NCBI RefSeq assembly: GCF_009687865.1 | Contig: NZ_BLAE01000005.1 | Location: 78,299 to 142,298, forward strand | Reading direction: 5' to 3' | DNA length: 64,000 nt | Source: Acrocarpospora macrocephala | GTDB lineage: Bacteria > Actinomycetota > Actinomycetes > Streptosporangiales > Streptosporangiaceae | Shown: one piece after another, positions 32,552 to 57,593 of the stretch | Layout: each line of letters begins with the position of its first letter | Position numbering within the stretch: position 1 is the stretch's first letter | Translations under genes and position numbers: made by a program | The notes under the pieces: generated by a model | What the model was told of the DNA's origin: nothing | The model's database searches: none | Seen by the model: the letters and a program-made list of their open reading frames with translations, nothing else

Positions 32552-32584
32552 CACTCCCCGGCCCGCGCAGCGGGACGGGGAGTG
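32552..32584 (-). terminator. Hairpin terminator after His-Gly protein gene
   Basis: CACTCCCCG pairs with CGGGGAGTG and, after one G/A mismatch, CCCGC with GCGGG around the loop GCA. It lies 12 bases beyond the stop codon. Confidence 0.8.
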
Positions 32585-32595
32585 AGGCCTAAGCC

Positions 32596-39148: not shown

Positions 39149-39235
39149 GCTTTCCCGGCGGAAAATCGTTCGCTCCTTCCGTACGCCCTGGTGCACCATG
39201 GCCACGGCGGGCCGGTATTCAGGGGGCGAATGGCT

Positions 39236-41059
39236 ATGGTCGGATCACTTGACTCCCCGGGAGACAAACCGTCGGCCCGGAGGTCGGCCGTCCTGCTGGC
39301 GCTGCGGTACTACAACCGGGAACTGCGCCAGCAGTGGCGGGTCGCGGCACCCGCGCTGATCTTTCCGGCGCTGGGGAACATCTGCCTGTTCTACCTGGCG
39401 CCGCTGGCGGTGGGCGCGCTCGTGGGGCATCTGGCCGGTGGCGGGGACGGCACCGTCGGGGTGCTCATGCCGTACGTGCTGGTCTTCGGCGCGCTGCTGC
39501 TCATCGGCGAGGCACTCTGGCGGGTGGGCCTGCACTTCCTGAACCGCACCGACGCCCGGGGCATCGAGCGGCTCGGCGTGGTGGGCATGGACGAGTTGCT
39601 GGCCAAGGACGCCGCGTTCTTCCACGACAACTTCGCCGGTTCGCTGACCAAGCGGGTGCTGAGCTTCTCCAGCGGGTTCGAGGAGTTCGCCGACACGCTC
39701 ACGTTCTCGATCATGGCCAAGGTGGTGCCGCTGGCGTTCGCCTCGGTGGTGCTCTGGCAGTACCACCCGCTGCTGGTCTTCGTGCTCGTGGGCCTCATCA
39801 TCGTCACCGGGTTCCTCGTCGCCCCGCTCATCCGCCGCCGCCAGGCGCTGGTGGACGAGCGTGAGGCCGCCAAGGTACGCGTGTCCGGGCACGTCGCCGA
39901 CGTACTGGCCAACATGGAGACGGTCCGCGCGTTCGCCGCCGAGGACCGCGAGGCCGTCGAGCACCGGGCCAGGCTCGCCGAGCAGCGCCGCCTGTCGCTG
40001 CGCTCCTGGGACTACGGCAACCTCCGGGTGGACACCGTCGTCGCCCCGATGTCGATCCTCACCAGCACCATCGGCCTGCTCCTGGCCGTGGCTCTGCGGG
40101 GTGGCCTGGGCGTGGAGGCGATCGTGGTGACGTTCACCTACTACACGAACACGACCGGCTTCATGTTCGAGTTCAACCAGATCTACCGTCGCATGGAGAG
40201 CGTGCTGACCGAGGCCGCCCAGTTCACCGAGCTCCTCCTCACCCCGCCGGACGTGACCGACCCCGACAACCCGCAGCCGCTGCGCCCCGCCGACGCCGGC
40301 GTCCGCTTCGAGCGGGTGACGTTCGCGCACGCCGGCAACCCGCTCCTGTTCGACCACCTGGACCTGGACATCCCCGCCGGCACCAAGATCGGCCTGGTCG
40401 GCCGGTCCGGCGGGGGCAAGACCACCCTCACCCGGCTGCTGCTCCGCCTCATGGACATCGACGGCGGCCGGATCCTGATCGGCGGCCAGGACATCACCCG
40501 GCTCCGCCAGACCGACCTGCGCAGCCTGATCGCGTACGTCCCCCAGGAACCCGCCATGTTCCACCGGTCGCTGCGCGACAACATCGCCTTCGCCCGGCCC
40601 GGCGCCTCCGACGCCGACATCCACCGGGCCGCCCACGCCGCCCACGTCACCGAGTTCGCCGAAGCCCTGCCCATCGGCTTCGACACCCTGGTCGGCGAAC
40701 GCGGCGTCAAACTCTCCGGCGGCCAGCGCCAGCGCGTCGCCCTGGCCCGCGCCATCCTCCGCGACGCCCCCATCCTCCTGCTCGACGAGGCCACCAGCGC
40801 CCTGGACTCCGAAAGCGAAATCCTCGTCCAGGAAGCCCTCTGGCACCTCATGCGCGACCGCACCGCCCTCGTGGTCGCCCACCGCCTGAGCACCGTCGTC
40901 CGCATGGACCGCCTGGTCGTCCTCGACCACGGCCACATCGTCGAACAGGGCACCCACAACGAACTCCTCCAGTCCCAGGGCCCGTACGCCCGCCTCTGGC
41001 ACCACCAATCCGGCGGCTTCCTCGTCGAACAGGACACCCCAGACGCCGTCCACCGCTGA
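39236..41059 (+). CDS. ABC exporter, fused permease-ATPase
   Basis: The ~607-residue half-transporter has a six-helix exporter domain (residues ~25-320) and one ATPase domain with Walker A GRSGGGKTT, Q-loop VPQEPAMF, signature LSGGQRQRV and Walker B ILLLDEATSALD plus H-loop AHRLST. It would act as a homodimer; the substrate is unknown. Of two close ATGs the second has better spacing to AGGGGG. The last seven codons and ten bases beyond the stop are duplicated 13.96 kb away, at the far end of the catabolic island. Confidence 0.92.
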   Translation: MVGSLDSPGDKPSARRSAVLLALRYYNRELRQQWRVAAPALIFPALGNICLFYLAPLAVGALVGHLAGGGDGTVGVLMPYVLVFGALLLIGEALWRVGLHFLNRTDARGIERLGVVGMDELLAKDAAFFHDNFAGSLTKRVLSFSSGFEEFADTLTFSIMAKVVPLAFASVVLWQYHPLLVFVLVGLIIVTGFLVAPLIRRRQALVDEREAAKVRVSGHVADVLANMETVRAFAAEDREAVEHRARLAEQRRLSLRSWDYGNLRVDTVVAPMSILTSTIGLLLAVALRGGLGVEAIVVTFTYYTNTTGFMFEFNQIYRRMESVLTEAAQFTELLLTPPDVTDPDNPQPLRPADAGVRFERVTFAHAGNPLLFDHLDLDIPAGTKIGLVGRSGGGKTTLTRLLLRLMDIDGGRILIGGQDITRLRQTDLRSLIAYVPQEPAMFHRSLRDNIAFARPGASDADIHRAAHAAHVTEFAEALPIGFDTLVGERGVKLSGGQRQRVALARAILRDAPILLLDEATSALDSESEILVQEALWHLMRDRTALVVAHRLSTVVRMDRLVVLDHGHIVEQGTHNELLQSQGPYARLWHHQSGGFLVEQDTPDAVHR

Positions 41060-41069
41060 CGACACCAGC
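41037..41069 (+). repeat. 33-bp direct repeat, left copy
   Basis: This copy covers the end of the ABC exporter gene, including its stop codon. It is identical over 33 bases to 54997-55029, with 37 of 38 matching if extended to the next GCGA. The left copy is followed at once by a truncated SDR fragment. Confidence 0.85.
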
Positions 41070-41074
41070 GGCGA

Positions 41075-41215
41075 CATGCGGCGGCGATGGCCGTGTAGGC
41101 ACCGCCCAGGTGAACATCCACGACTTCGGTCCATTCCTCCTCGGACATCCGGCCGAACGTGCGATCTCCTACGTGACCGGCGTTCACCACGAGCGCGTCG
41201 GTTCGCTCATTGCGC
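41075..41215 (-). pseudogene. SDR oxidoreductase remnant at island border
   Basis: Minus-strand reading gives ERTDALVVNAGHVGD and RTFGRMSEEEWTEVVDVHLG, then GAYTAIAAA. This is the central NNAG-helix region of a short-chain dehydrogenase of the acyl-CoA-pathway type. It has neither the Rossmann start nor the YxxxK active site. The fragment stops at the left 33-bp repeat and runs into the thioesterase 3' end on the other side, so both ends are lost. Confidence 0.75.
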
Positions 41216-42049
41216 CGTGCGGCGCCGTCCTGTCACGGTCGCGCTGACACAGGAACGTCCGGAGTCGTCTGATCCCGTCACCTGGATCACGCCGAACGAC
41301 CGGCCGATATGTATCGGCTGACCGATCATGGATATGGCTGCGCCGGGTACGGGGGGCCGCAGGTACGAAACATGAACATGAGCCGTCCGAAGATCCCCGC
41401 CTCGCGCGAACGCCTCCGCAGCCGCGACCTCGGCCATGCTCGCCCAGACGCCGCCGTGGAGCACGCCGTACCCGTTGTACCAACGCGCGGGATCCCGGAG
41501 TTCGACGCGGGTGCGCTGGTCGTCCGTGCTGATCCGCACGCCCAGGTGCTCGGCGAAGTTCACGGCTCCGGGCGGAGGGCCGTCGGTCGGCACGACAAGC
41601 TCTGCGGCGACGCGGGAATCACCGGCCGGCACGTACTGGGTCCAGGCGGCGCCCACCGCGATGAGGGTGCCGAAGTCGTCGGCCACTTCGCATTGGGCGA
41701 ATCCTCCTGTCGCCTCCGCCCTCGGGACCCAGGAGGTGGCGTGCAATGTCGCCGTGTTCCACGGTGGTGGAACGATGATGTCGCACGCCAGCTCGGTGGT
41801 CAGCGACCAGTGGCCCGCCGGTCTCGCGGTGTAAATGGTTTCGCCCAAGGCGTGGTCGAGGAGCACGGCCAGCGCGCCCGCCTGCTGGCGCCCATGGGAG
41901 CCGTCCATCCAGGGACCGGTCCTCATCACCGATCGCAGAAACCTGCCATCAACCCGGCAACCGACGACGCCGAAGCGTCTCTCCACCACACCCAAGTCAC
42001 AGGTGGGCGGCGCGTCTCCCAACAGCTCTCCGCCGATGCCGGGCGTCAT
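41207..42049 (-). CDS. Acyl-CoA thioesterase, double-hotdog (PaaI-like)
   Basis: The 280-residue protein consists of two hotdog domains. The first contains GALAVLLDHALGETIY. The second contains YNGYGVLHGGVWASMAEVAAAEAF with the PaaI-type HGG and acidic residue, followed by VSYLRPPVPGAAISMIG. Double-hotdog members hydrolyse acyl-CoA esters. The ATG start follows AGGTAGGGG. It is transcribed leftward, downstream of a crotonase gene, and fits as CoA-recycling or overflow enzyme of the pathway. Confidence 0.87.
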   Translation of the reverse strand: MTPGIGGELLGDAPPTCDLGVVERRFGVVGCRVDGRFLRSVMRTGPWMDGSHGRQQAGALAVLLDHALGETIYTARPAGHWSLTTELACDIIVPPPWNTATLHATSWVPRAEATGGFAQCEVADDFGTLIAVGAAWTQYVPAGDSRVAAELVVPTDGPPPGAVNFAEHLGVRISTDDQRTRVELRDPARWYNGYGVLHGGVWASMAEVAAAEAFARGGDLRTAHVHVSYLRPPVPGAAISMIGQPIHIGRSFGVIQVTGSDDSGRSCVSATVTGRRRTAQ

Positions 42050-42115
42050 AGCGCCACCCCTACCTGTTTGCGACAGCTGCATCGTGCTCCTCGACGAGTA
42101 TCACCGGCGGGATCG

Positions 42116-42877
42116 CTACTTCTTCTTGATCTTGCGGTAGGCGTCGTTGATGCGGGCCACGACGTCGGGGTGCCAGATCACTTCCCGATAGGCCAGGGTT
42201 TCGTAGGTGAGCGCGCTGTTGGGGTCGAGAGCTGGGGACGTCCGTGCCATCTCCTTGTTGTTCACCGCCGATTTGACGGTGGTCTGCGCGATGGAGGCGG
42301 CGAGGGCGCTCGCGTGACCGACTACCTCACCTTCGGGTGCCAGCCGATCGATGAGGCCGATCCTCAGGGCCTCCTTCGCGTCTATCCGTTCGCCGGAGAA
42401 CGTCAGCACCTTCGCCTGGCTGAGGCCGACGATCCGCCAAAGGGGCGAGAAATAGGGGGTGAGCCCGAACTTGACCTGCGGGTATCCGAAGATCGCGTTC
42501 TCGCTGCCGATCCGGATGTCGGCGAAGACCGCGATATCGCATCCGCCGCCGAGCGCGGGACCGCCGACGGCGGCGATGGTCGGCTTCCGGTAGTCCAACA
42601 GTGTGCCGTACGCCCGAAGGCACGCTTCGGAGTAGATCGCGCGGGTTTCCTCGGTGAATCCCGATTGCAGGTCCAGATCCAGACCCGCACAGAAGATGTC
42701 TTCACCGCCGGTCAGCACCACCGCGGCGACCTCGTCGTCGTAGGCCCACGCGTCCAGCTGGTCGCTCAGGTCCGTCATCAGCTCCACGCTCAGGGCGTTG
42801 CGGCGGTCGAGCCGGTCGAAGATGATCGTCCCGACGCCACCCTTGACGGTGGATTTGATGTTCTGAAATTCCGTCAT
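42116..42877 (-). CDS. Crotonase-superfamily protein with D/Q active site
   Basis: The 253-residue protein has the crotonase fold: FDRLDRRNALSVELM, FCAGLDLDLQ for CoA binding, and PALGGGCDIAVFADIRIGSENAIFGYPQVKFGL. At the two catalytic Glu positions of hydratases it has Asp114 and Gln134. It ends in KKIKKK-like basic residues. The same two substitutions occur in its island paralogue, so simple hydratase activity is doubtful. Isomerase, decarboxylase or C-C hydrolase chemistry is possible. It lies directly after the acyl-CoA ligase in the leftward unit. Confidence 0.9.
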   Translation of the reverse strand: MTEFQNIKSTVKGGVGTIIFDRLDRRNALSVELMTDLSDQLDAWAYDDEVAAVVLTGGEDIFCAGLDLDLQSGFTEETRAIYSEACLRAYGTLLDYRKPTIAAVGGPALGGGCDIAVFADIRIGSENAIFGYPQVKFGLTPYFSPLWRIVGLSQAKVLTFSGERIDAKEALRIGLIDRLAPEGEVVGHASALAASIAQTTVKSAVNNKEMARTSPALDPNSALTYETLAYREVIWHPDVVARINDAYRKIKKK

Positions 42878-42909
42878 GCTGAAGTTCGCTCTTCTCGTTG
42901 AAATCGGCT

Positions 42910-44523
42910 CTACGACACGATGTCGTCGAGGTTGGCCAGCCGGTGCTTCTGGATCTTTCCGGCCGCGCTCCGCGGAATCTCGGCGACCACATGCCAGCGC
43001 GTGGGAATCTTCTGCTTGGCCAGCTTCTCCGCCTCGAGGTGCGTGATCAGCGGTTCCGGCCCGCGCCACTCGGCCCCGGGCCTGAGGACGAGCCAGGCCC
43101 CGACGGCCTCCCCCAGCCGCTCGTCCGGGACAGCGGTGACCGCCACCGCCTCGACATCGGGATGCGACGCGATGGCGAGCTCGATGTCCATCGCCGAGAA
43201 CTTCTCCCCGCCGCGGTTGATGATGTCCTTGCTGCGGCCGGTCATCCGCACCCAACCCTGGGTGTCGACCCGGCCCACGTCGCCCGGATAGAACCAGCCG
43301 TCCTCGTCGATCTGCGCCTTGGTCAGCTGGGGATCGGTGTATCCGGACAGCAGCTGCGGCCCTCTGATCCGCAGCTCGCCGTCGGTTCCCAGCGGCAGCG
43401 GCTGCCGGAATTCGTCCACGGCCTGGATTTCCATGCCCCGCAGGAGTCGGCCGTCCCATTCCCGGCGCCGGGCCAGCGGGTCACCGGACGAGGCGATGGC
43501 GCAGACTCCGGCCGTTTCCGTCATGCCATAAGCGCGCACTACGGTGACGCCCACCTCAGCGGCACGGTCGACGAGGGGGGCAGGGATCGCGGCACCGGCG
43601 CAGGCGTAGGTCGGCAGACGATGGCTGCGCGACAGACCTCGCTCGTAGCGGTCCACCAGATCGGAGACGAACACGGTGGCGCCCATCATCAGGGACACCC
43701 GCTCCTGCTCGATGAGCGACAGTGCTTCGTCGGGTTGCCAGCCGCGCGTGATCACCGACCTTCCGCCGAGGAAGGCCGGAAACACCACTCCGGCCACGAA
43801 GCCACCGAGGTGAGACAGCGGGGTCGCGGCCAGGGTCACCGTCTGCTCGCCGGCGCCGAGGGCCTCCTGGAAGTTACGCATGTGCGCCAACAGCGCCTGG
43901 CTGGACAGGAGCGCGCCCTTGGGCGCGGAGGTCGTCCCCGAGGTGTAGAGCAGCAGCGCCGGTTCCTCCGCCGCCAGCGGCTCAGGCAGCTCGACGTCGT
44001 CCTCGGCCTCTTCGGCCGGAACCTGCTCCCAGTCGTCCCGGTGCCCGCCGACGACATAGCGCACCGCGGGTGCCAACCCCAGTTCGGCGAGCAGGTTGTC
44101 GAACTCTTCGACTGGCCGCCGGCTGCCGAGCTCGGCCGCCGCGGCGATCACCGCCGGCCGGCAGTCGGCCAGGATGCGGCGCATCTCGTGCTCACGGTAG
44201 ATCGGCACGACGGGCACGTCGACCGCGCCGATGCGGAACGCCGCGACCTGGAGGACCAGTGCCTCAAGGCAGTTGGGTAGCTGCACGAGGACGCGGTCGT
44301 GCCGGCGGACACCGCGACGGACCAGGTCGGCGGCCACCGTCCTGGTCCAGCCGTCGAACTCCCGGTACGTGATGCGACGCCCCTCAAAGCAGAACAGCTC
44401 CTTGTCCGGATACCGCCTGGCCCGGGAGGGCAGCAGAGCACCGATCCGGTCTTCGGTCCACAGACCGATCGCCCGGTAGCCCGCATGCCGGTATTCCGTA
44501 GCCAAGTTCGACACCGTCGTCAT
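42910..44523 (-). CDS. Acyl-CoA synthetase (AMP-forming, class I adenylase)
   Basis: The 537-residue protein has all adenylation motifs: LLLYTSGTTSAPKGALLS (A3), RAYGMTETAG (A5), DGWFYPGDVGRVD (A7), TGRSKDIINRGGEK (A8) and the C-terminal catalytic lysine in SAAGKIQKHRL. It activates a carboxylic acid to its CoA ester and probably starts the island's pathway. A candidate operator lies 70 bp upstream. The substrate (fatty, terpenoid or aryl-alkanoic acid) cannot be read from sequence. Confidence 0.94.
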   Translation of the reverse strand: MTTVSNLATEYRHAGYRAIGLWTEDRIGALLPSRARRYPDKELFCFEGRRITYREFDGWTRTVAADLVRRGVRRHDRVLVQLPNCLEALVLQVAAFRIGAVDVPVVPIYREHEMRRILADCRPAVIAAAAELGSRRPVEEFDNLLAELGLAPAVRYVVGGHRDDWEQVPAEEAEDDVELPEPLAAEEPALLLYTSGTTSAPKGALLSSQALLAHMRNFQEALGAGEQTVTLAATPLSHLGGFVAGVVFPAFLGGRSVITRGWQPDEALSLIEQERVSLMMGATVFVSDLVDRYERGLSRSHRLPTYACAGAAIPAPLVDRAAEVGVTVVRAYGMTETAGVCAIASSGDPLARRREWDGRLLRGMEIQAVDEFRQPLPLGTDGELRIRGPQLLSGYTDPQLTKAQIDEDGWFYPGDVGRVDTQGWVRMTGRSKDIINRGGEKFSAMDIELAIASHPDVEAVAVTAVPDERLGEAVGAWLVLRPGAEWRGPEPLITHLEAEKLAKQKIPTRWHVVAEIPRSAAGKIQKHRLANLDDIVS

Positions 44524-44590
44524 CGATGTGCTCCCTTCCGGGTGCGCCTGGTCCCCGCGTGTAGCCGCGAGGACCTGCGGCGAATTTATC

Positions 44591-44606
44591 TAGTTAATAC
44601 TCACTA
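44591..44606. promoter_or_regulatory. Imperfect copy of the island TetR operator
   Basis: TAGTTAATACTCACTA matches the perfect palindrome at 46784-46799 in 14 of 16 bases and sits upstream of the acyl-CoA ligase gene, so one regulator probably controls both units. Confidence 0.6.
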
Positions 44607-44654
44607 AACGAAGAGATGGCTGTTGTTCGAGACCGATGACGGGCAATGGGCACG

Positions 44655-45452
44655 TCACGATCGGGGCCGGAGGCGCTCGGTCGCCTTGCTCCGTCCGGAT
44701 CGCAGCGCTTCGAGTCCTTCGCCGAGCCGCCTGGTGAACAGCCCGCGCTGGACCAGGTCGGCGGTCACGCGCAGTTCGTAGGCCGTGGCGCCGATGTGGT
44801 CCATGTTGCCGGACCGCAACGCGACCTCCTTGAGCACGGTCGTCAGTTCGGTGCCGGCCTCGGCGATGTGCCGGGCGAGGCGAAGGCCGCTCTCCCGTAC
44901 GGTGCCGACCGGTACGACCTCATCGACAAGGCCGGCCCGGTGGGCTTCCCGCGCGTCGATCGGGTCGCCGGTGAACAGCATCCGGCGTGCCCGTTGCGCG
45001 CCTACTTTGCGCAGCATGCCGTGGTAGAAGCCGTTCATGGCGTATTTGACCTGCGTGGACCCGAAGGCCGCGTTTTCGGAGGCGACCGTGATGTCGCACA
45101 TGTTCGCCAGGTCCATGCCGTAGCCAGGTGCCATGCCGGCGACCGCCGCGACCGTGGGCTTGCGATAGTCGTAGATCGTCACCATGAGCTTGCACGCCAG
45201 GTCGACGAAGCGGGTGAGCTCCTCGCCGGATATCCGGTCGAGCACGTCGAGTGCCCAGCCCGAGCAGAAGTAATCCTCGTTGCCTACGAACAGGACGGCG
45301 GCCACACGGTCGTTCTCGGCCCAGTCCTGCAGGGCGGCGATGATCTCGTGGTGCAGGTCCCAGCCGAGGGCATTGCGCTTTTCCGGATGGTTGAGCTGAA
45401 TGACGCCGACGCCGTCTTCGACGGAGGTGATCAGGTACTTGTACTCGGCCAT
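44655..45452 (-). CDS. Crotonase-superfamily protein with D/Q active site (paralogue)
   Basis: The 265-residue protein shows NHPEKRNALGWDLH, FCSGWALDVLD and APGYGMDLANMCDITVASENAAFGSTQVKYA. Asp114 and Gln134 replace both hydratase glutamates at exactly the positions seen in the other leftward crotonase. The oxyanion glycine loop reads GMAPGYGM, slightly unusual. It is transcribed leftward with a 130-bp gap to the ligase gene. Function beyond crotonase fold is not assigned. Confidence 0.9.
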   Translation of the reverse strand: MAEYKYLITSVEDGVGVIQLNHPEKRNALGWDLHHEIIAALQDWAENDRVAAVLFVGNEDYFCSGWALDVLDRISGEELTRFVDLACKLMVTIYDYRKPTVAAVAGMAPGYGMDLANMCDITVASENAAFGSTQVKYAMNGFYHGMLRKVGAQRARRMLFTGDPIDAREAHRAGLVDEVVPVGTVRESGLRLARHIAEAGTELTTVLKEVALRSGNMDHIGATAYELRVTADLVQRGLFTRRLGEGLEALRSGRSKATERLRPRS

Positions 45453-45512
45453 CGAGTGGTGATCCTTTCTGGCTCTTGGACGCGATGAGAATTCACCGGG
45501 TGAAGCCTGGTC

Positions 45513-46727
45513 TCAGCCGGCGATCTCCGACGGTTGCTCCGTGGCTGTCGCATCACGGGTGACGTCCGCATTGAGGACGGCGTGAAGGAAAGTCTCGAGC
45601 TCGGCCTCGACGTGTGGCCGGGCGTGCAGGTGGCCGACGCGGACGACGTCGTTGACGATGCCGCGGGCCGCGTACACGAGCGCGTGGCTCTCGGTCACGC
45701 TCAAATCGGGCCGCCGTAGCCGTAGCGCGGCTGACCATTCCTCGACGTTCGCGGCCAGCTCGGCGCCGATCCGGCGACCGTCCTCCTGCGGCAGGTTGAT
45801 CGCTTCGGTCACGTAGACGCCGAAGAGATGTCGCTGCTGGACGCCGACGCGGATGTAGCCACGCACCAGTTCGTCGAGGGACGTGTCTCCCCGCTGGGGC
45901 GCGAGCCGGTGCGCCGCCTGGGTGAAGGCCGTCACGAGCAGCTCGGACTTCGTCGCGAAGTGGTGGTAGATGCTCGGGCCGGACAACCCGATCGCCGCCC
46001 CGATGTCATCCAGGCTGACCCCCGCGTAGCCACGCTCATGGAACAGCGCGATCGCCGTTTCCAGCAGCTCCTCGGTACGGGACAGCGTGACTTGAGGCCG
46101 GTGCGGCGCAGCCGGGGGCCCGGTGCGCGGGCCCGCTGGCGGCAACTCCGTGCGGGCCGCCGCGGCTGCCGCGGCGGCGAGGACGCGAAGGTACTCGGCG
46201 CGCGGGAGGCGCACACCGCTGACCGAAGCACTTGCCATGGTCGCCAGCACCGCGGTGACGAGCAGCTTCAGCCGGCCACGGTCGGCATCGGGGCGGGCCT
46301 GCCGCAGGCGTGCCGACAACCGGGAGACGAACTCGCCGAACCGGGCCTCGACCCTCGCGCGTTCCGCACCGCCGAGGTGCCGCATCTCCCGTTGCAGCAG
46401 GACCCAGAGGTCGCGCCTGTCGAGGGCGGCGCCCGCCAGCCTGAACAGGAGGTCGTCCAGCGACTCCGCGGCCGCGGCGAACGCGGCGTCCACCACGTCG
46501 AGCGCGCCATCGATGGCACCGGCGAGCAGCGCGTTCTTGTTCCGGAAGTGCCGGTAGACGGCCGGCGCGGTGACGCCGACCTCCGCCGCCACGTCGGCCA
46601 GCGCGACCGCGTGGTAGCCGTACCGATAGAAGCGCCGCGCCGCCGTCTCCGCCAGCTGCCGTCTGCGCTGCCCGGCGCCGAGGCGAGCAGCGCCGGCGCG
46701 ATGACCGTTCCGTGTCGTCGTTGCCAC
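45513..46727 (-). CDS. Double TetR regulator (two TetR units fused in tandem)
   Basis: The 404-residue protein contains two complete TetR-like units. The first helix-turn-helix is VALADVAAEVGVTAPAVYRHFRNKNALL (residues ~41-68). A linker rich in Ala/Pro (~190-212) leads to the second, VSLDDIGAAIGLSGPSIYHHFATKSELL (~237-264). Each is followed by its own ligand-domain-like helices. Ordinary TetR proteins are ~200 residues. It is divergent from the thiolase operon, with a perfect 16-bp palindrome in the gap. The fusion would let one chain imitate a TetR dimer. Confidence 0.93.
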   Translation of the reverse strand: MATTTRNGHRAGAARLGAGQRRRQLAETAARRFYRYGYHAVALADVAAEVGVTAPAVYRHFRNKNALLAGAIDGALDVVDAAFAAAAESLDDLLFRLAGAALDRRDLWVLLQREMRHLGGAERARVEARFGEFVSRLSARLRQARPDADRGRLKLLVTAVLATMASASVSGVRLPRAEYLRVLAAAAAAAARTELPPAGPRTGPPAAPHRPQVTLSRTEELLETAIALFHERGYAGVSLDDIGAAIGLSGPSIYHHFATKSELLVTAFTQAAHRLAPQRGDTSLDELVRGYIRVGVQQRHLFGVYVTEAINLPQEDGRRIGAELAANVEEWSAALRLRRPDLSVTESHALVYAARGIVNDVVRVGHLHARPHVEAELETFLHAVLNADVTRDATATEQPSEIAG

Positions 46728-46783
46728 AACCCAGCCTCTCCTCGCCGTGCCGCGCGCCGGCGCGATCGAGCGCCATTCTTGCC

Positions 46784-46799
46784 TAGTGAATATTCACTA
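46784..46799. promoter_or_regulatory. Palindromic operator TAGTGAATATTCACTA
   Basis: A perfect 16-bp palindrome in the 127-bp gap between the double TetR gene and the thiolase gene. It is the expected position for autoregulation and control of the rightward operon. Confidence 0.75.
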
Positions 46800-46854
46800 A
46801 GCTACCGTCTGCGTCAATAGCCGCACCCGTCAGTCCGGGGAAGGAAGCACCGCG

Positions 46855-48081
46855 ATGTCTCACTCACCGTCGGTACCGGAAGCGTTCATCTACGACGCCA
46901 TCCGCACTCCGCGTGGCCGGGGGAAGAGCTCCGGGTCCTTGCACACCATCAAGCCCGTCACCCTCGTCGTCGGCCTGATCGACGAGCTACGCGCCCGGCA
47001 CCCCGATCTCGACCCCGCCGCGATCGACGACCTCGTCCTGGGCATCGTTTCGCCGGTCGGCGACCAGGGTTCGGTCCTCCCCCGTACGGCCGCCCTCGCA
47101 GCCGGCCTGCCCGACACCGTGTCGGGGCTGCAGCTCAACCGGTTCTGCGGGTCCGGTCTGGAAGCGGTGAACACGGCCGCGCAGAAGGTTCGGTCGGGAT
47201 GGGATCGGCTCGTGATAGCGGGTGGCGTGGAGTCGATGTCGCGGATACCGCTCGGGTCCGATGGCGGCGCCTGGATGAACGACCCGGAGACGAACTTCGC
47301 GACGTCCTTCATTCCGCAGGGAGTGAGCGCTGACCTGATCGCCACGATCGAGGGCTTCACCCGTGAAACCGTCGACTCCTACGCGGAGCGCTCGCAGCGG
47401 CTCGCCGCGGCCGCGTGGTCCGGTGGGCATTTCACGAAGTCCGTCGTCCCGGTGCGCGACCGCAACGGCGTCACCGTCCTGGACCATGACGAGCACATGC
47501 GGCCGGACACGACGCTCGAGTCGCTGGCCACGCTCAAGCCGTCGTTCGCCAAGATCGGCGAGGCCGGTTTCGACGCGGTGGCGCTCCAGCGCTACCACTG
47601 GGTCGAGCGGATCGAGCACGTGCATCACGCCGGCAACTCGTCGGGCATCGTCGACGGCGCGGCTCTCGTGCTGATCGGCGACGAGCGCATCGGCCAGCAG
47701 CACGGCCTGACCCCCCGCGGCCGAGTCGTCGCCACCGCCACCTCCGGGGCCGACTCGACGATCATGCTGACCGGTCCCATCCCGGCCACCCGCAAGCTGC
47801 TCGGCCACACCGGCCTCACGGTGAATGACATCGATCTGTTCGAGATCAACGAGGCATTCGCGGCGGTCCCCCTGAAATACGCCAAGGATCTCGGCATTCC
47901 GCTGGAGAAGATCAACGTCAACGGCGGCGCCATCGCGATGGGCCATCCGTTGGGCGCGACCGGGGCCATGCTCGTCGGCACCATGCTCGACGAACTCGAG
48001 CGCCGGCAGGCCCGCCGCGCGCTCGTCACCTTGTGCATCGGCGGCGGTATGGGCGTCGCCACCCTCATCGAACGTCTGTGA
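46855..48081 (+). CDS. Acetyl-CoA acetyltransferase (thiolase, FadA-like)
   Basis: The 408-residue protein has the catalytic residues of degradative thiolases: [15 protein letters not shown] with the nucleophilic Cys, [25 protein letters not shown] with the His, and [11 protein letters not shown] with the second Cys. It opens the rightward operon and would pair with the FadB-like protein encoded next as the beta subunit of a trifunctional complex. The gap to that gene is 31 bp. Confidence 0.95.
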
Positions 48082-48112
48082 CGCCGCATCCACCGATTTC
48101 TTGGAGCCACCG

Positions 48113-50278
48113 ATGACGAACTACGACCACCCGATGTTCCACTGGGAACGGGACGCCGACGGCATTGTCACCGTGACGATGGACGACCCGGACCAGTCGG
48201 CCAACACCATGAACGACCGGTTCCGCAGCGAACTACCGATCCTCGTCGATCACCTGCACGCGGAGCGTGACTCCATCACCGGCGTGATCGTCGCCTCGGC
48301 GAAGAAGACGTTCTTCGCCGGTGGCGACCTCGGGATGATGATGCGCGCCACGGCGGACCAGCTCGTGGACGTCACCGCCATGCTCGACGGAGTCAAGGCC
48401 GCCCTACGGCGCCTGGAGACCCTCGGCAGGCCGGTCGTCGCGGCCCTCAACGGTGCCGCGCTGGGCGGCGGCTACGAGATCGCCCTGGCCTGCCACCACC
48501 GGATAGCGCTTGATCAGCCCCATGTCAGTGTCGGTCTTCCCGAGGTGACGCTGGGCCTGTTGCCCGGTGGCGGCGGGACCACCCGCACGGTCCGTATGTT
48601 CGGTCTGCGGACCGCCCTGCAGGAGATCCTGCTCACCGGGACGAAGTTCCGTCCGAGGGCCGCTTTGGAGAAGGGGCTGGTCGACGAACTGGTCGCCGAT
48701 CCGGGACAGCTCGCGACGGCCGCCCGGGAGTGGATCGTGGCCAATCCAGAGCCGGCGCAGCCTTGGGACCGACCTGGTCATCGGATCCCCGGCGGCACTC
48801 CGGCCGACTCGGCACTGGCCGCCGTCCTGCCGTCTCTGCCCGCGGTGCTGCGCAAGCAGACCCACGGATCGCCGGCTCCCGCCGCTCACAACCTGCTCTC
48901 AGCCTCGGTCGAAGGCGCCCAGGTGGACTTCGACAACGCCCTGACCATCGAATCGCGGTACTGCGCGGAACTGATCTGCGGCCAGATCTCGGCGAACATC
49001 ATCAAGTCGATGTTCTTCGACGTGCAGGCGATCAACCGGGGCGCCGGCCGCCCCGCGGGCCACCCGCCGCATCAGGCCCGGAAGCTGGTAGTTCTCGGCG
49101 CCGGCATGATGGGCGCCGGGATCGCCTACGTCAGCGCCAAGGCCGGTCTCGAGGTCGTGCTCAAGGACGTGTCTCTGGAGGCGGCTGAGCGTGGCAAGAG
49201 CTACAGCGCGAAGATCCTGGACAAGGCGGTTCAGCGGGGAACCATCACGCCCGCACGACGTGAGGAGGTCCTGGCCCGGATCCACCCGACCATCGACCCG
49301 GCCGACGCCGCAGGCGCGGACCTGCTCATCGAGGCCGTCTTCGAAGACCCCGAACTGAAGAAAAGGGTCACCGCCGAAACGGCCGTTCACCTCACCCCGG
49401 ATGCCGTGCTCGCCTCCAATACCTCGACCTTGCCCATCACCGGCCTCGCGGAGGGGATGTCCAGGCCCGAGGACTTCATCGGGCTGCACTTCTTCTCCCC
49501 TGTGGACAAGATGGCGCTGCTGGAGATCGTGGTCGGCGAGAAGACCAGCGACGCCACCGTGGCGAAGGCGATCGACATCGCGCGGCAGATCGGCAAGACC
49601 CCCATCGTGGTCAACGACAGCCGGGGCTTTTTCACCAGCCGCGTCATCCTGGAGTTCGTCAACGAAGCCGTGGCGCTGCTCGGCGAGGGAGTGCCGGCCG
49701 CATCGATCGAGCAAGCGGCGATCCAGGCGGGATATCCCGTCGGCGCCCTCGCCCTCGTGGACGAGTTGACGCTGACCCTGCTCCGTGAGATCCGCGAGCA
49801 GAGCATCGCCGTCGCGGCCGGGATCAGCCGGCCGACGCATCCGGCCGCGGCGGTGGCCGACCGGATGATCGACGAGTTCGGACGCCGGGGACGTGCGGCC
49901 GGGGCCGGGTTCTACGACTACGTCGATGGACGCAAGGCGGGTCTCTGGCCAGGCCTGAAGGACGCCTTCGGCGGCACCGACACGGCGGTGCCGCTGATCG
50001 ACATGCAGGAGCGCATGCTGTTCGCCGAAGCGCTCGACGCGATTCGCTGCCTGGACGAAGGAGTCCTCCGATCGGTCGCCGACGCCAACGTCGGTTCGAT
50101 CCTCGGCATCGGCTTCCCCGCCTGGACCGGCGGGGTCCTGCAGTACGTCAACCAGTACGACGGCGGCCTGCCCGGGTTCGTGGCCAGGGCACAGGAACTG
50201 ACGCAACGCTACGGCGACCGGTTCGCGCCGCCGGAATCGCTCGTCCGCAAAGCGGAGAACGGGGAGGACTACCGATGA
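48113..50278 (+). CDS. FadB/FadJ-like enoyl-CoA hydratase/3-hydroxyacyl-CoA dehydrogenase
   Basis: The 721-residue protein has an N-terminal crotonase domain (AALNGAALGGGYEIALACHH and LPEVTLGLLPGGGGTTR, with both catalytic Glu present) and a Rossmann domain (LVVLGAGMMGAGIAYVSAKAG). The dehydrogenase active site (IGLHFFSPVDKMALLEIV, His and Glu) and tandem C-terminal domains follow. The ATG after GGAGCCACCG is used. It performs hydration and NAD-dependent oxidation in beta-oxidation and partners the thiolase before it. Confidence 0.95.
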   Translation: MTNYDHPMFHWERDADGIVTVTMDDPDQSANTMNDRFRSELPILVDHLHAERDSITGVIVASAKKTFFAGGDLGMMMRATADQLVDVTAMLDGVKAALRRLETLGRPVVAALNGAALGGGYEIALACHHRIALDQPHVSVGLPEVTLGLLPGGGGTTRTVRMFGLRTALQEILLTGTKFRPRAALEKGLVDELVADPGQLATAAREWIVANPEPAQPWDRPGHRIPGGTPADSALAAVLPSLPAVLRKQTHGSPAPAAHNLLSASVEGAQVDFDNALTIESRYCAELICGQISANIIKSMFFDVQAINRGAGRPAGHPPHQARKLVVLGAGMMGAGIAYVSAKAGLEVVLKDVSLEAAERGKSYSAKILDKAVQRGTITPARREEVLARIHPTIDPADAAGADLLIEAVFEDPELKKRVTAETAVHLTPDAVLASNTSTLPITGLAEGMSRPEDFIGLHFFSPVDKMALLEIVVGEKTSDATVAKAIDIARQIGKTPIVVNDSRGFFTSRVILEFVNEAVALLGEGVPAASIEQAAIQAGYPVGALALVDELTLTLLREIREQSIAVAAGISRPTHPAAAVADRMIDEFGRRGRAAGAGFYDYVDGRKAGLWPGLKDAFGGTDTAVPLIDMQERMLFAEALDAIRCLDEGVLRSVADANVGSILGIGFPAWTGGVLQYVNQYDGGLPGFVARAQELTQRYGDRFAPPESLVRKAENGEDYR

Positions 50279-51138
50279 CCATCAACGACCAAACGCGCCC
50301 GCTGGCCGGTCGCACGATCCTGATGTCCGGCGGCAGCCGCGGCATCGGCCTCGCCATCGCGACCCGGGCAGCCCGCGACGGGGCGAACGTCGTGCTGCTG
50401 GCCAAAACCGATAAGCCCGACCCCCGGTTGCCCGGCACGGTGCACACCGCCGTCGCCGAGATCGAGGCCGCCGGCGGCAACGGTCTCGCGGTGGTCGGTG
50501 ACGTCCGCCGCGAGGAGGACGTCACCGCGGCGGTGGATCGGGCCGTGGCCGCCTTCGGCGGGATCGACATCGTGGTGAACAACGCTTCGGCGATCGCCCT
50601 GGCCCCGATCGGCAAGCTGCCACTCAAGCGCTACGACCTGATGCTCGACATCAACGCCCGCGGCACCCTCGCCCTGATCAGTGCGGCGCTGCCCCACCTC
50701 TACGAATCCGACAACCCGCACGTTCTCACCCTTTCGCCGCCGCTGAACCCGGATCCGGTGTGGCTGTACCGGCACGCGCCCTACACGATCAGCAAGTACG
50801 CCATGACCATGCTGACGCTCGGGCTGGCCGGGCAGCACCACCCGCGGCCGCTGGCCGCGAACTGCCTGTGGCCGCGCACGACGATCGCCACTGCGGCGGT
50901 GCGGAACATCGTCGGCGGCGACGCGGCGATGGCCGTGTCCCGCCGCCCCGAGATCATGGCCGACGCCGCGCACGCGATCCTCTCCCGCAAGGCCACCGAC
51001 CGTACCGGCCAGTGCCTCATCGACGACGACGTGCTGCGCGGCGAGGGGGTCATCGACTTCAGCGTCTATCGCTACGGCGACGCCGCCGAAACCGATCTCA
51101 AGATCGATCTGTTCCTGCCCGGAGGCGAGCATGCCTGA
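50275..51138 (+). CDS. SDR-family oxidoreductase, HSDL2-like
   Basis: The 287-residue protein has the cofactor motif MSGGSRGIGLAIA, IVVNNASAIAL, and active-site pattern LTLSPPLN with YTISK. The long insert after GxxxGxG, with KTDKPDPRLPGTV, is diagnostic of the HSDL2/SDR-C3 subgroup found with fatty-acid and terpenoid catabolism. The gene overlaps the previous stop as ATGA and overlaps the dehydrogenase gene downstream by 8 bp, so all are tightly co-translated. Confidence 0.93.
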   Translation: MTINDQTRPLAGRTILMSGGSRGIGLAIATRAARDGANVVLLAKTDKPDPRLPGTVHTAVAEIEAAGGNGLAVVGDVRREEDVTAAVDRAVAAFGGIDIVVNNASAIALAPIGKLPLKRYDLMLDINARGTLALISAALPHLYESDNPHVLTLSPPLNPDPVWLYRHAPYTISKYAMTMLTLGLAGQHHPRPLAANCLWPRTTIATAAVRNIVGGDAAMAVSRRPEIMADAAHAILSRKATDRTGQCLIDDDVLRGEGVIDFSVYRYGDAAETDLKIDLFLPGGEHA

Positions 51139-52285
51139 GGCCACCCGCACGGCGTACGAGGAGGAGCACGAGCTGTTCCGGCAGGCCGTGCGGTCCTTCA
51201 TCAAGACCGAGGTCGCCCCGTACGACGAGGAGTGGGAGCAGCGCGGAATCGTCGACCGGTCATTGTTCCGTAAAGCCGGGGAAGCCGGTCTGCTGCTGTT
51301 CGCGACACCGGAGGCCTACGGCGGAGCCGGGATCGACGACTGGCGGTTCAACGCGGTCGTGAACGAGGAGTTCGGCCGGTCCGGCTACGCGTCCGCGGGT
51401 CTCGGGCTCGCCCTGCAGAACGACGTGGTCGGGCCGTACATCCTCGACTTGACCAGCGACGAGCAGAAGGCTCGCTGGTTGCCCGGCATGACTTCGGGCG
51501 AGCTGATCGGCGCGATCGCGATGACCGAGCCGGGTACCGGCAGCGACCTGTCCGCCATCGCGACCCGCGCGGTCCGCGACGGCGACCACTACGTCCTGAA
51601 CGGCTCGAAGACCTTCACCTCCAACGGGCAGAACGCCGACCTCGTCGTGGTGGCCGCCCGCACCTCCGAGGAGAGGCATCGCGGCCTGAGCTTGTTCGTC
51701 GTCGAGCGGGGCATGGAAGGCTTCGCACGAGGACGGAATCTGGAGAAGCTGGGCCTGCACGGCCAGGACACCAGCGAACTGCACTTCACCGACGTGCGCG
51801 TCCCTGTCGCCAACCGGCTCGGTGCGGACGGGCAGGGCTTCTTCCAGCTCATGCGCAACCTGCCGCAGGAACGCCTCTCCCTGGCGGTCACCGGGGTCTC
51901 CGCCGCGGAAGGTGTGCTGGCCCGCACGATGGAATACGTCACCGAACGCCGCGCCTTCGGCCAGCCGATCGGTACCTTCCAGCACAACCGGTTCCTGCTG
52001 GCCGAACTGCACACCGAAGTGGATATCGCGCGGGTCTTCGTGGACCACTGCGTGGCCCTGCACGCAGGCGGGCAGCTGACTCCCGCCCAGGCGGCCAAGG
52101 CGAAGTGGTGGTGCACCGAACTGCAGGTCCGGGTGGCCGACCGTTGCCTGCAACTGCACGGCGGATACGGCTACATGCGCGAGTACCCGGTCAGCCGGGC
52201 CTTCGCCGACGCCCGCGTCCAGACCATCTACGGCGGCACGACCGAGATCATGAAAGAGATCATCGGCCGGGACCTCGGTCTTTGA
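51131..52285 (+). CDS. Acyl-CoA dehydrogenase
   Basis: The 384-residue flavoenzyme shows IAMTEPGTGSDLSAIATRA (FAD/substrate loop), LNGSKTFTSNGQNADLVVV, ERRAFGQPIGTFQHNRF, and the C-terminal QTIYGGTTEIMKEIIGRDLGL. The last includes the Glu used as catalytic base in most family members. It would introduce the 2,3-double bond in the pathway's acyl-CoA. Electron transfer proteins are not encoded nearby. Confidence 0.95.
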   Translation: MPEATRTAYEEEHELFRQAVRSFIKTEVAPYDEEWEQRGIVDRSLFRKAGEAGLLLFATPEAYGGAGIDDWRFNAVVNEEFGRSGYASAGLGLALQNDVVGPYILDLTSDEQKARWLPGMTSGELIGAIAMTEPGTGSDLSAIATRAVRDGDHYVLNGSKTFTSNGQNADLVVVAARTSEERHRGLSLFVVERGMEGFARGRNLEKLGLHGQDTSELHFTDVRVPVANRLGADGQGFFQLMRNLPQERLSLAVTGVSAAEGVLARTMEYVTERRAFGQPIGTFQHNRFLLAELHTEVDIARVFVDHCVALHAGGQLTPAQAAKAKWWCTELQVRVADRCLQLHGGYGYMREYPVSRAFADARVQTIYGGTTEIMKEIIGRDLGL

Positions 52286-52293
52286 GCGGCGGC

Positions 52294-53088
52294 ATGAGCA
52301 CACCAGTGACGCTCGAGGTCAGCGACGACATCGCGCTGATCGGCCTGTCCCGGCCCGGCAACGGCAACGCCATCGATCTGCCGATGGCGCGGGGACTCCG
52401 GGACGCGGTGACCGAGGTCGGCTCGATGCCCACCGTGGGCGCGGTGGTCCTGTTCGGACGCGGCGAGCAGTTCTGCGTCGGCGGCGACCTTCAGGTGTTC
52501 GCCACCGCGGCGGCGCCCGGCCAGTTCCTCGCGGAACTCGCCGGCACCGCGCACGAGGCCGTGCTCGGGCTTCGCTCGCTTCCCATCCCAGTGATCAGTG
52601 CCGTTCACGGCGCCTGCGCCGGTGGCGGGATCGGCTTCGCCCTCGCCGCGGACCTGGTGCTGGCCGAGCGCACCGCCCGCTTCGTGGTCGCGTACACCGC
52701 CGCTGGTCTGTCTCCCGACTGCGGGGTGTCCTGGACCCTGACGAAAGTGCTCGGCCCGGCCCGCGCCAACGACCTGATCCTGACCAACCGGCGGCTCGAC
52801 GGCACCGAAGCGGAGCGGCTGGGATTGGTCAGCCGCGTCGTGGAGCCCGGCACCGTGTACGAGGAAGCGCTGCGGCTGGCGCGTTCGCTCGCCGAGGGCC
52901 CCCGCCGCGCGCTGGCACACTCCGCTCAACTGGTACGCGAGGCCGGAGCCGCCCCGTTGACGGAGCATCTCCAGCGCGAAGCGGAGTCCATCGCTTCCCT
53001 GATCGAGACACCGGACGGTTCGGAGGGCATCGCCGCCTTCCTCCAGAAGCGGCGGCCCGACTTCACCAGCACCCGATTGAGGAATTGA
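52294..53088 (+). CDS. Enoyl-CoA hydratase/isomerase family protein (PaaG-like)
   Basis: The 264-residue crotonase has FCVGGDLQVFATAAA and HGACAGGGIGFALAADLVLAE. Instead of the hydratase Glu pair it has Gly in the first position and AYTAAGLSPDCGVSW, the pattern with GLSPD typical of PaaG-type enoyl-CoA isomerases. The ATG nine bases after the acyl-CoA dehydrogenase stop is used. An isomerase step would let the pathway process pre-existing double bonds in an unsaturated substrate. Confidence 0.9.
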   Translation: MSTPVTLEVSDDIALIGLSRPGNGNAIDLPMARGLRDAVTEVGSMPTVGAVVLFGRGEQFCVGGDLQVFATAAAPGQFLAELAGTAHEAVLGLRSLPIPVISAVHGACAGGGIGFALAADLVLAERTARFVVAYTAAGLSPDCGVSWTLTKVLGPARANDLILTNRRLDGTEAERLGLVSRVVEPGTVYEEALRLARSLAEGPRRALAHSAQLVREAGAAPLTEHLQREAESIASLIETPDGSEGIAAFLQKRRPDFTSTRLRN

Positions 53089-53094
53089 GGCACC

Positions 53095-53607
53095 ATGAAC
53101 CACAGCGAGGCCACCGATGCCGCGTTCCTGCGCCGATTCGCCACCGACTGGCTGGTGGCCTGGAACTCACACGACACCGAGCAGGTCCTGGCCCTGCTCC
53201 ACCTGGACATCGTCTGGGAGGACACCGTCTTCTGGACCGACGTCATTCACGGCCGGGAAGCGCTCCGGGAGTACGTCGAACGAATCTGGAAAGCGATGCC
53301 GGACGTCCGGTTCGACGAGGTGCAACTGTTCACCGCGCCGGAGGATGGCCGGGCGGTCGTCCTGTTCCGCCAGGAAGGCAGCGGGCCGCCCCAGCTCGAC
53401 CCCACCCGCAGGTTCGAGACCTACGGCTGCGACATCTTTCTCGAGTTCACCGATGGGCTGCTGTCCCGTTACCTGGCGCAGTACGAGATCACGGAGATGA
53501 TGCGCCAGCTCGGGGCCCTGCCCCCGCGCGACGGGAAGATCGGCGGCGCGTACCTTCTCGCACTGCTGGGTGGGGACCGGACGGCGCACTCCACCGGGTC
53601 GCGCTGA
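53095..53607 (+). CDS. NTF2-like (SnoaL/KSI-fold) protein
   Basis: The 170-residue protein shows the cone-shaped alpha+beta fold: FLRRFATDWLVAWNSHDTEQVLALLHLDIVWED, a middle GREALREYVERIWKAMPDV, and beta strands ending FLEFTDGLLSRYLAQYEITEMMRQLG. Such proteins act as isomerases, cyclases or hydrolases, or bind small hydrophobic ligands. As last gene of the rightward operon it may handle a ring or unsaturated intermediate. Function unknown. Confidence 0.85.
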   Translation: MNHSEATDAAFLRRFATDWLVAWNSHDTEQVLALLHLDIVWEDTVFWTDVIHGREALREYVERIWKAMPDVRFDEVQLFTAPEDGRAVVLFRQEGSGPPQLDPTRRFETYGCDIFLEFTDGLLSRYLAQYEITEMMRQLGALPPRDGKIGGAYLLALLGGDRTAHSTGSR

Positions 53608-53626
53608 GGACGTGAATCACGCGGTT

Positions 53627-53663
53627 CGCCGGACGGAGGCCATCTGCTGGGCACCGTCCGGCG
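53627..53663. terminator. Bidirectional hairpin terminator
   Basis: A perfect 10-bp stem CGCCGGACGG/CCGTCCGGCG, extendable by GTT/AAC, with a 17-base loop separates the convergent NTF2-like and double-TetR genes. Confidence 0.8.
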
Positions 53664-53669
53664 GAACGT

Positions 53670-54869
53670 TCACCCGTCGGCGGCCAGGGCGGCGTGGACG
53701 AGAACCCGCAGCTCCTCCGGCAGGCCCGGACGGGCATGAAGGCGGCCGATCCGTACGACATCATGGACGATACTGCGCCCGGCCTGCACCAGGACCAGCT
53801 GCTCTGCCTCCGTCAACTCCGGGCGTTCGCGGCCGAGCGCCTGGCACCACGCCTGGACATCGGCCTGCAGACCTGCCCTGATCCGTCGACCCGCTTCGGC
53901 AGGCAGATCGACCGCGTCCAGCACGTAGACGCCGAGGAGCAGTCGTTCCCGCACTCCGAGGTCGACGTACACGCGAATGAGGTCGTCAAGGCTCGGCGGC
54001 TCAACGCCGGAACCCCGATGCGAGGCCAACCACTCCGTCGCCCTGGTGACCGCCGCGACAAGAAGGTCAGCCTTTGTAGCGAAGTGGTAGTAGATGCTCG
54101 GCCCGGTGATCCCGACTTCGGCGCCGATGTCATCGAGACTGACCGCCGCGTAACCCCGCTCGTGGAACAACCGCACGGACGTCCTGAGCAGTTCCTCACT
54201 TCGGGACGGCGCGGAGGACCCCACCGGGATCGCCTGTTCGGAGACGGCATTCCCCTGCGCGTGACTGTTGGCGACGGGCGAGGGCAACGACACACGGCAC
54301 ACGGCTTCCGCGGCGGTGGCGAGCAGGCGCTGCTGCTCGTCCGCTGGGAGTTTGAGCCCGTAGGACGAGGGGCTCGCGAGGACGGCAAAGGCCGCGGTGA
54401 CAAGGAGGCGGACGTCCACCATGTCGACATCCGGGCGCAGCCGTCGCACCGCGGTGCTGAAGCGGTCGACGAACGCCGAGAAGCGCTCCTCGATCGGCGC
54501 TCGCTGCGCCGGGTCGAGGTGGCGCAACTCGCGCTGGAGAAGGGCCCACAGGTCACGCCGCTTGACGGCAACGGCCGCCAGAGGCGTCAGCAACTCGTGC
54601 AGCGGCGCTGAGCCGGCATCGGCGGAAGCGGCGTCCACGACGTCGAGGGCACTGCCTATCGCGGCCGCGAGCAACTCCTGCTTGCTCCGATAGTGCCGGT
54701 AGATGGCCGGTGCGGTGAGGCCGACAGACGTCGCCACCTCCGCCATCGAAACTTTGTGGAACCCGAGGCGGTGAAAGTGCCGCGCGGCGGACTCCGCCAG
54801 CTGGCGCCTACGCTCCTCCGTGCTCAACCGCGTGCGCCTGACGGTAGTCCCCGTACCGGCTCGGGCCAT
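53670..54869 (-). CDS. Double TetR regulator (second tandem fusion)
   Basis: The 399-residue paralogue of the double TetR protein elsewhere in the island has a first helix-turn-helix VSMAEVATSVGLTAPAIYRHYRSKQELL and a second VSLDDIGAEVGITGPSIYYHFATKADLL. They are connected by a linker with SHAQGNAVSEQ. Both units keep the LLVTAAFAV/ARSIVHDVVRIGRLHAR type ligand helices. Two such proteins in one cluster suggests control by two related ligands. No copy of the 16-bp palindrome was seen upstream; a GGTCGG/CCGACC inverted repeat lies about 20 bp before the start. Confidence 0.92.
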   Translation of the reverse strand: MARAGTGTTVRRTRLSTEERRRQLAESAARHFHRLGFHKVSMAEVATSVGLTAPAIYRHYRSKQELLAAAIGSALDVVDAASADAGSAPLHELLTPLAAVAVKRRDLWALLQRELRHLDPAQRAPIEERFSAFVDRFSTAVRRLRPDVDMVDVRLLVTAAFAVLASPSSYGLKLPADEQQRLLATAAEAVCRVSLPSPVANSHAQGNAVSEQAIPVGSSAPSRSEELLRTSVRLFHERGYAAVSLDDIGAEVGITGPSIYYHFATKADLLVAAVTRATEWLASHRGSGVEPPSLDDLIRVYVDLGVRERLLLGVYVLDAVDLPAEAGRRIRAGLQADVQAWCQALGRERPELTEAEQLVLVQAGRSIVHDVVRIGRLHARPGLPEELRVLVHAALAADG

Positions 54870-54996
54870 GAGCTTCCCTTCAAGGTCGGTCGTGGCCGAC
54901 CGCGCCGCCCACTCTCCCGATCCTACCGATGGCCCTTACCCCGGATTTGTCAGTGTCCAGCACCTCACCTCCTGCTCGGGGCCATGGCCAGGCCGT

Positions 54997-55029
54997 CCCC
55001 AGACGCCGTCCACCGCTGACGACACCAGC
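54997..55029 (+). repeat. 33-bp direct repeat, right copy
   Basis: Identical to 41037-41069 and in the same orientation. Here it has no coding context: the bases before it do not continue the ABC exporter frame. It lies 46 bp before the AAA ATPase gene. Confidence 0.85.
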
Positions 55030-55075
55030 AGCGATTGCGGTGATCGGTGAGTTCTTGCCGATCTAAGCTGGTGTC

Positions 55076-56188: not shown

Positions 56189-56433
56189 TTCACGTCGAGC
56201 GAGCCCGCGCGGTGTTGATCCTTTCCTGCCACGAGGATGAGCGTGATCCGCTGATGGCTGCAGTGCTACCCGATCCCGATGGCGTGCTTCGCGCACGATG
56301 GACGCCCTGATGCCCTCGCCCAAACGGGTGCGCCGCCATCGATGCCGTCGCTCCGCTGCTCATCGGCTGAGCCGAAGTCGGTCCTGGGCTACTGCGCCAG
56401 ATCCACATCTCAAGAGTCCAGGGCCGGGCGCGG

Positions 56434-57572: not shown

Positions 57573-57593
57573 GCGGCACTCCTCACACCTCGG

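Follow-up and report, generated by a model that had tools for sequence, protein, structure and literature searches.

A perfect 33-bp direct repeat brackets an integrase-less acyl-CoA catabolic island behind an ABC exporter gene of Acrocarpospora macrocephala

We analysed a 64,000-bp stretch of the Acrocarpospora macrocephala genome (assembly GCF_009687865.1, contig NZ_BLAE01000005.1, positions 78,299 to 142,298), hereafter called the window, in which two copies of a 33-bp sequence bracket a set of acyl-CoA catabolism genes lying behind an ABC exporter gene. The segment is ordinary in kind and well defined in detail: it is a repeat-bracketed catabolic island without an integrase. The explanation that we tentatively favour, with a confidence that falls just short of even, is that the island has att-like ends and is a horizontally acquired cluster whose insertion at the exporter 3' end left the 33-bp repeat. 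The features on which this rests are the following.

39191 to 41059, forward strand: ABC exporter gene, the putative insertion target (Pfam ABC_membrane and ABC_tran)
41037 to 41069, forward strand: left 33-bp repeat copy, consisting of the exporter gene end with its stop codon plus 10 bp
41053 to 41071, no strand: inverted arms CCGCTG and CAGCGG separated by 7 bases, where the left repeat ends
41070 to 54996, no strand: catabolic island, 13,927 bp, twelve genes, acyl-CoA catabolism
54997 to 55029, forward strand: right 33-bp repeat copy, without a supported coding role

An earlier note on this DNA had claimed that the two copies are identical and run in the same direction, and that the left one is the true exporter 3' end, stop codon included. 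Both claims were borne out, the copies matching at 33 of 33 positions in equal orientation (37 of 38 when one mismatch is allowed) and the last exporter codons lying inside the left copy, with the TGA stop at 41057-41059. The note had also asked whether the 33-mer recurs across the genome; when up to three mismatches were allowed, exactly two copies were found in the 12.1-Mb draft, those that bracket the island. Since the number of pairs this long that is expected under an independent-base model is about 3e-9 for 64 kb and about 2e-4 for 12.1 Mb, the repeat is not due to chance. The right copy is flanked by the start of a TetR gene and by an AAA ATPase gene and is overlapped by two mechanically called open reading frames (54693-55019 on the forward strand and 54965-55288 on the reverse strand). 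Removal of the segment had been expected to place the AAA gene 46 bp behind the exporter; 46 bp is indeed the distance from the repeat to the AAA start codon, but from the exporter stop codon the distance would be 56 bp.

Inverted arms around a spacer are usual in tyrosine-recombinase core sites, and the 6-base arms at the end of the left repeat fit such a core, although a transcription terminator is also consistent with them. One base of the arms is altered in the right copy. The 27 bases at the repeat end were predicted to fold as RNA with energies of -10.3 (left) and -7.4 (right) kcal/mol, corresponding to z scores of -4.7 and -3.9, respectively.

The island itself holds the genes listed below, together with a gene remnant at its left edge.

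41068 to 41243, reverse strand: remnant of a short-chain dehydrogenase (SDR) gene, cut at the repeat edge (DNA and amino acid alignment)
41207 to 42082, reverse strand: hotdog thioesterase-like protein (PF03061, TIGR00369)
42116 to 42877, reverse strand: first enoyl-CoA hydratase family gene, start estimated from homology (PF00378; 67% to locus L183)
42910 to 44523, reverse strand: AMP-dependent acyl-CoA ligase (PF00501; 64-69% to Pseudonocardia)
44655 to 45452, reverse strand: second enoyl-CoA hydratase family gene (PF00378; 75-78% to Pseudonocardia)
45513 to 46727, reverse strand: first regulator, with two TetR_N stretches in a single chain (Pfam)
46855 to 48081, forward strand: acetyl-CoA C-acetyltransferase, or thiolase (NF006090 above cut-off; 84% to L183)
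48101 to 50278, forward strand: FadB/FadJ-type hydratase-dehydrogenase (Pfam, NCBIfam; 73% to L183)
50275 to 51138, forward strand: SDR oxidoreductase (NF006133 above cut-off; 77% to L183)
51131 to 52285, forward strand: acyl-CoA dehydrogenase (Pfam; 78% to L183)
52300 to 53088, forward strand: third enoyl-CoA hydratase family gene, start estimated (PF00378; 27% on the pBCI1-2 stretch described below)
53095 to 53607, forward strand: SnoaL/NTF2-like protein (PF12680; 67% to L183)
53670 to 54869, reverse strand: second regulator, with two TetR_N stretches (Pfam)

The gaps between these genes are under about 150 bp, and the two double-TetR_N regulators are 54% identical to each other. The cargo would activate a carboxylic acid through the AMP-ligase and oxidise it by means of the dehydrogenase, the hydratases, HCDH and the thiolase, probably under the control of the two regulators. 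The ligase and the dehydrogenase match models of cyclohexanecarboxylate enzymes, among others, far below their cut-offs (NCBIfam), and a substrate was thus not assigned.

Comparison of the island with other genomes showed that clusters of this kind are also found in Pseudonocardia. Relatives of 11 of the 12 island genes are located on one stretch of pBCI1-2, an 850-kb plasmid of Pseudonocardia sp. EC080619-01 that is typed as mobilizable, and related clusters were also found in Pseudonocardia endophytica and P. sp. 73-21 (the first hydratase was compared in frame at three Pseudonocardia loci). Protein identity on the plasmid stretch is 43-84% for 10 of the 12 genes and 36% for the thioesterase, the third hydratase being the sole gene without a close relative there. 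The order TetR-thiolase-FadB-SDR-acyl-CoA dehydrogenase is the same in the island and on pBCI1-2, and the pBCI1-2 and P. endophytica clusters largely agree with the island in their enzymes and in the type of regulator, whereas their left part is rearranged and their SDR gene is long where the island has a stub. The pBCI1-2 cluster, unlike the island, is adjoined by P450, SCP2 and MCE genes. At the DNA level, the first 7 kb of the island, the part searched among plasmids, were not covered to 80% at any one place. The AMP-ligase was found at E<=1e-180 in 3 of 394 genomes of the class and the second TetR regulator at E<=1e-60 in 4 of 297 genomes of the order, the host genome being counted in both cases. 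Proteins similar to the double-TetR_N regulators stand beside the related Pseudonocardia clusters, and weaker full-length matches (32-34%) occur on Rhodococcus plasmids.

The left edge of the island is truncated. The SDR remnant has 71% amino acid identity over 42 residues to an SDR that forms part of the P. endophytica cluster, and its DNA similarity to the foreign SDR stops at 41068, in the final two bases of the left repeat, while similarity to the closest congener (G001) on the exporter side stops at 41060-41065; these two limits place the junction at the right end of the left repeat. A circular form of the island with an SDR gene across the joint was considered and rejected, the right end of the island being no better than shuffled sequence as the missing half of the gene: against three SDRs, 102, 169 and 196 of 500 shuffles were as good in the best frame and 23, 27 and 70 of 300 shuffles were as good at the DNA level.

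The closest congener does not have the block. Its exporter is 96% identical, and it follows the window contig (C5) in the same order from C5:94 kb to 289 kb, in blocks mostly of 92-96% identity. The end of its exporter gene is identical to the first 24 of the 33 repeat bases (28 bases when a 1-bp gap is allowed), and its match to the S15 peptidase region (window 57623 onward) starts only 64 bases past the end of the exporter match. The block absent from this genome measures 16,557 bp and comprises the island, the AAA gene and a SUKH gene, so that the island is only one part of a larger variable zone. Since a 20-base end piece of the SUKH gene (window 56432-56451) survives beside the S15 gene of the congener, part of the difference looks, from the aligned sequences, like a loss in G001 and not an insertion here. 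The island was not found by DNA in four congeners (G001-G004, three candidate places being scored per genome), where the best match was each time a dehydrogenase paralogue of 70-73%. Outside G001, the window proteins showed only the exporter and paralogue-level matches in the relatives read.

We then compared the island with other variable segments of the same genome. Thirteen block gaps of at least 700 bp separate the host genome from G001, and 12 of them were scored, that at C5 252335-253057 (a rearranged match) being left out. The 150 bp on either side of the outer edges were searched for a common match, in the longer genome for ten gaps and in G001 for two; at C5 113884-115752, one of the ten, G001 holds more DNA than the genome scored. 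At all 11 other block indels the longest outer-junction match was 7-10 bp, where 396 random pairs gave a median of 9 and a maximum of 15; this test would miss inner repeat pairs. A survey of exact direct repeats of at least 25 bp lying 0.5-50 kb apart, which covered 692 kb of the 12.1 Mb (the whole of contig C5 and 200 kb each of C6 and C9), revealed one other pair of at least 30 bp with unrelated flanks, a 44-bp repeat at C6:75823 and 90267. The other pairs were pieces of paralogous genes, one pair of 29 bp spaced by 1 kb and one of 25 bp spaced by 2 kb, and contig C5 has no further exact repeat of 25 bp or more whose copies lie within 50 kb of each other and have unrelated flanks.

The 44-bp pair brackets an island at a tRNA-Arg (acg) gene (C6:90268-90341) and is a built-in positive control, with the same size and geometry as the catabolic island and with an enzyme. 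The tRNA-Arg island (C6:75823-90310) is 14.4 kb long and, like the catabolic island, has a direct repeat at a gene 3' end; it differs in having a tRNA gene as its target and an integrase gene inside (Phage_integrase match at C6:88084-88629). The absence of repeats at the other indels, the sparing of the target gene and the existence of a canonical island of the same geometry together lead us to prefer a site-specific event.

Under the explanation that we prefer, an acyl-CoA cluster of the kind that is also carried by the mobilizable Pseudonocardia megaplasmid would have been acquired horizontally and inserted at the exporter 3' end, a gain rather than a loss. The left copy would be the attL-like end, in which the exporter frame and stop codon were kept, and the right copy the attR-like end, a displaced half-site; the recombinase would have been located outside the island, having either acted in trans or been lost since. 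The segment has direct repeats at both ends, as in integrase-bearing islands, and a left copy that keeps the exporter codons and stop, as expected of a restored gene 3' end, but it has no integrase gene inside, and its target is a protein gene, there being no tRNA gene in the window. Its att-like ends and lack of recombination and transfer genes agree with a cis-mobilizable element (CIME) or integrase-less island, the ends being putative att sites; no relative or remnant of an integrative and conjugative element (ICE) or an integrative and mobilizable element (IME) was recognised. It does not resemble a transposon, since no inverted match of more than 6 bp links the first 60 with the last 60 bases of the island and no transposase family was found among its proteins.

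Several results weigh against a site-specific event. None of the 12 island proteins has a recombinase or transposase family in Pfam, and the 37 Phage_integrase and 3 Resolvase matches of the genome, the two families searched there, all lie on other contigs, in agreement with the earlier note, which had seen no integrase. The 33-mer was found in none of 59 other genomes (60 were searched and only the host was positive), and an exact 22-mer of the site had no match in viral_contigs. The broken gene at the left edge of the island would be no less expected of a random break than of an att site. The 16.6-kb block absent from G001 has a match of 9 bp and no repeat at its outer edges, and the 33-bp pair therefore belongs to the inner segment alone. 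The exporter flank of G001 is without the inverted arms, so that the presumed target cannot be read from that genome, and its site folds like its shuffles (z -0.56, with 61 of 200 shuffles as good). In tetranucleotide composition the island does not stand out from the host, an equal or larger deviation being seen in 65% of 94 windows; a foreign composition was not found. The AAA protein had no match in the 16-20 kb behind the exporter end in 11 relatives including G001 (a twelfth, G003, ends at a contig edge behind the exporter), and the predicted empty site, the exporter followed by the AAA gene, was not seen in these 11. The ancestral exporter-AAA order implied by the earlier note thus found no support, and of its wider claim of integration or target duplication at a gene 3' end, the repeat, the spared exporter and the congener without the block stand, while that order does not. 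A search for integrases near the exporter in relatives, made with 23 queries picked by motif from 30 integrase loci, gave one weak match (32% over 84 amino acids), which lies in G036 at a distance of about 4.6 kb from the end of the exporter.

The main rival, and a close one, is an illegitimate insertion with target duplication, without att site or mobility, in which linear foreign DNA was joined into a staggered break behind the exporter and fill-in synthesis copied the 33 bp on both sides. We regard it as possible, though less probable than site-specific insertion. The genome encodes Ku, which makes end joining possible, the left edge of the island is a broken SDR gene, and the surroundings are a patchwork of decayed genes (an AAA-DUF4276 remnant and a broken SUKH gene) in a region rich in block indels. 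A stagger of 33-38 bases would be long, however, and 11 of the 11 other block indels have no repeat; the repeat also covers the end of a gene and leaves that gene intact, and in the titles and opening abstract lines that literature searches returned we recognised no direct precedent for bacterial fill-in duplications of such a kind.

It is unlikely that the right copy is a filler, produced when the island and the AAA remnant were inserted as several pieces and repair synthesis with template switching copied the exporter-island junction. The whole 16.6 kb including the AAA region is absent from G001, so that the two pieces may have arrived together, and the last repeat bases fit the SDR remnant and the AAA side alike, which leaves the direction of copying ambiguous; but this requires two coincident foreign pieces, and the 20-base SUKH stub of G001 makes part of the difference look like a deletion there. 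More doubtful still is a recombinase-free mobile metabolic cassette, in which plasmid-borne catabolic clusters would dock at gene 3' ends by means of hairpin-bearing 33-bp sites and a host recombinase. Least probable of all is an artefact in which short-read assembly joined two sequences with a common 33-mer, since, although the draft has 166 contigs and 33 bp is shorter than a read, the 33-mer has two copies only and the exporter end is part of it (even a false join would require this site on the island), the contig continues for 119 kb on the left side of the repeats and for 158 kb on the right, and the order of G001 matches on both sides.

Integrase-less islands between direct repeats have been described elsewhere. 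According to the accessible part of its description (PMC3191183), the MccH47 island of Escherichia coli enters and leaves at direct repeats while encoding no recombinase itself; like the catabolic island, it measures about 13 kb, has direct repeats at its ends and no recombinase, the function being provided from elsewhere in the cell. It differs in that its repeats are extensive and imperfect, its cargo is a microcin and its excision and integration were shown by polymerase chain reaction (same source), whereas the catabolic island has a perfect 33-mer, a catabolic cargo and a putative mobility. None of the E. coli recombination functions tested appeared to be involved in the movement of the MccH47 island, as far as the available part of PMC5426353 reports. 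CIMEs keep their att sites after the loss of integration and transfer genes, in the text available from PMC5704250, and share with the catabolic island the att-like ends and the absence of these genes; they derive from an ICE or IME, for which we recognised no counterpart here. Flanking repeats, mostly shorter than 30 bp, accompany 10-18% of the variable segments of E. coli, Staphylococcus aureus and Streptococcus pyogenes, in the accessible portion of PMC2884548.

The way in which whole degradation pathways enter actinobacterial chromosomes with no recombinase in sight is difficult to investigate when the two junctions have not been defined. At this locus both are defined, a congener lacks the block and there is a plasmid-borne relative, so that site-specific recombination, end joining and template switching become separable; should no mobility be found, the segment would still serve as a clear case of an integrase-less bracketed island.

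The genes to the right of the repeat pair are the following.

55061 to 56174, forward strand: decayed HEC-01A-type AAA ATPase gene joined to a DUF4276 (HEC-01B) piece, outside the repeat pair
56432 to 57575, reverse strand: frame-broken SUKH (SMI1/KNR4) gene with stops in frame, outside the repeat pair
57594 to 59507, reverse strand: S15 peptidase gene, in which homology to G001 resumes at 57623

The AAA gene, which starts at 55076, matches the candidate defence family HEC-01A with 435.6 bits (PADLOC). In G037 and G008 the AAA gene is followed by a complete DUF4276 gene (Pfam; HEC-01B was tested in G037), and in G057 by a similar partner frame. About 300 bp are missing in the window, fusing the end of the AAA gene to a piece of its DUF4276 partner, and the AAA gene is thus the decayed remnant of a defence-type pair. 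The last nine bases of the right repeat are the inverted complement of nine bases ahead of the AAA start. This repeat end may or may not form part of the AAA module, the AAA leader matching locus L107 only from 55061 on. The SUKH gene was recognised by PF09346 (37.2 bits on 57231-57575), and a SUKH stub of about 220 bp lies on another contig in G002 (C39; 64% over 73 amino acids). An old SUKH-S15 neighbourhood common to G002 was dropped as a candidate, there being no S15 match in the 20-kb stretch of that contig. The setting of the island is one of decay and turnover.

Two further features were noted on the same contig. An array of GTGCCC/ATGGCC-like units of 6 and 12 bases occupies positions 32575-32796 of the window, and beyond its right end, at C5:149913-151863, two similar segments with exact stretches of 22-65 bp lie about 1.56 kb apart.

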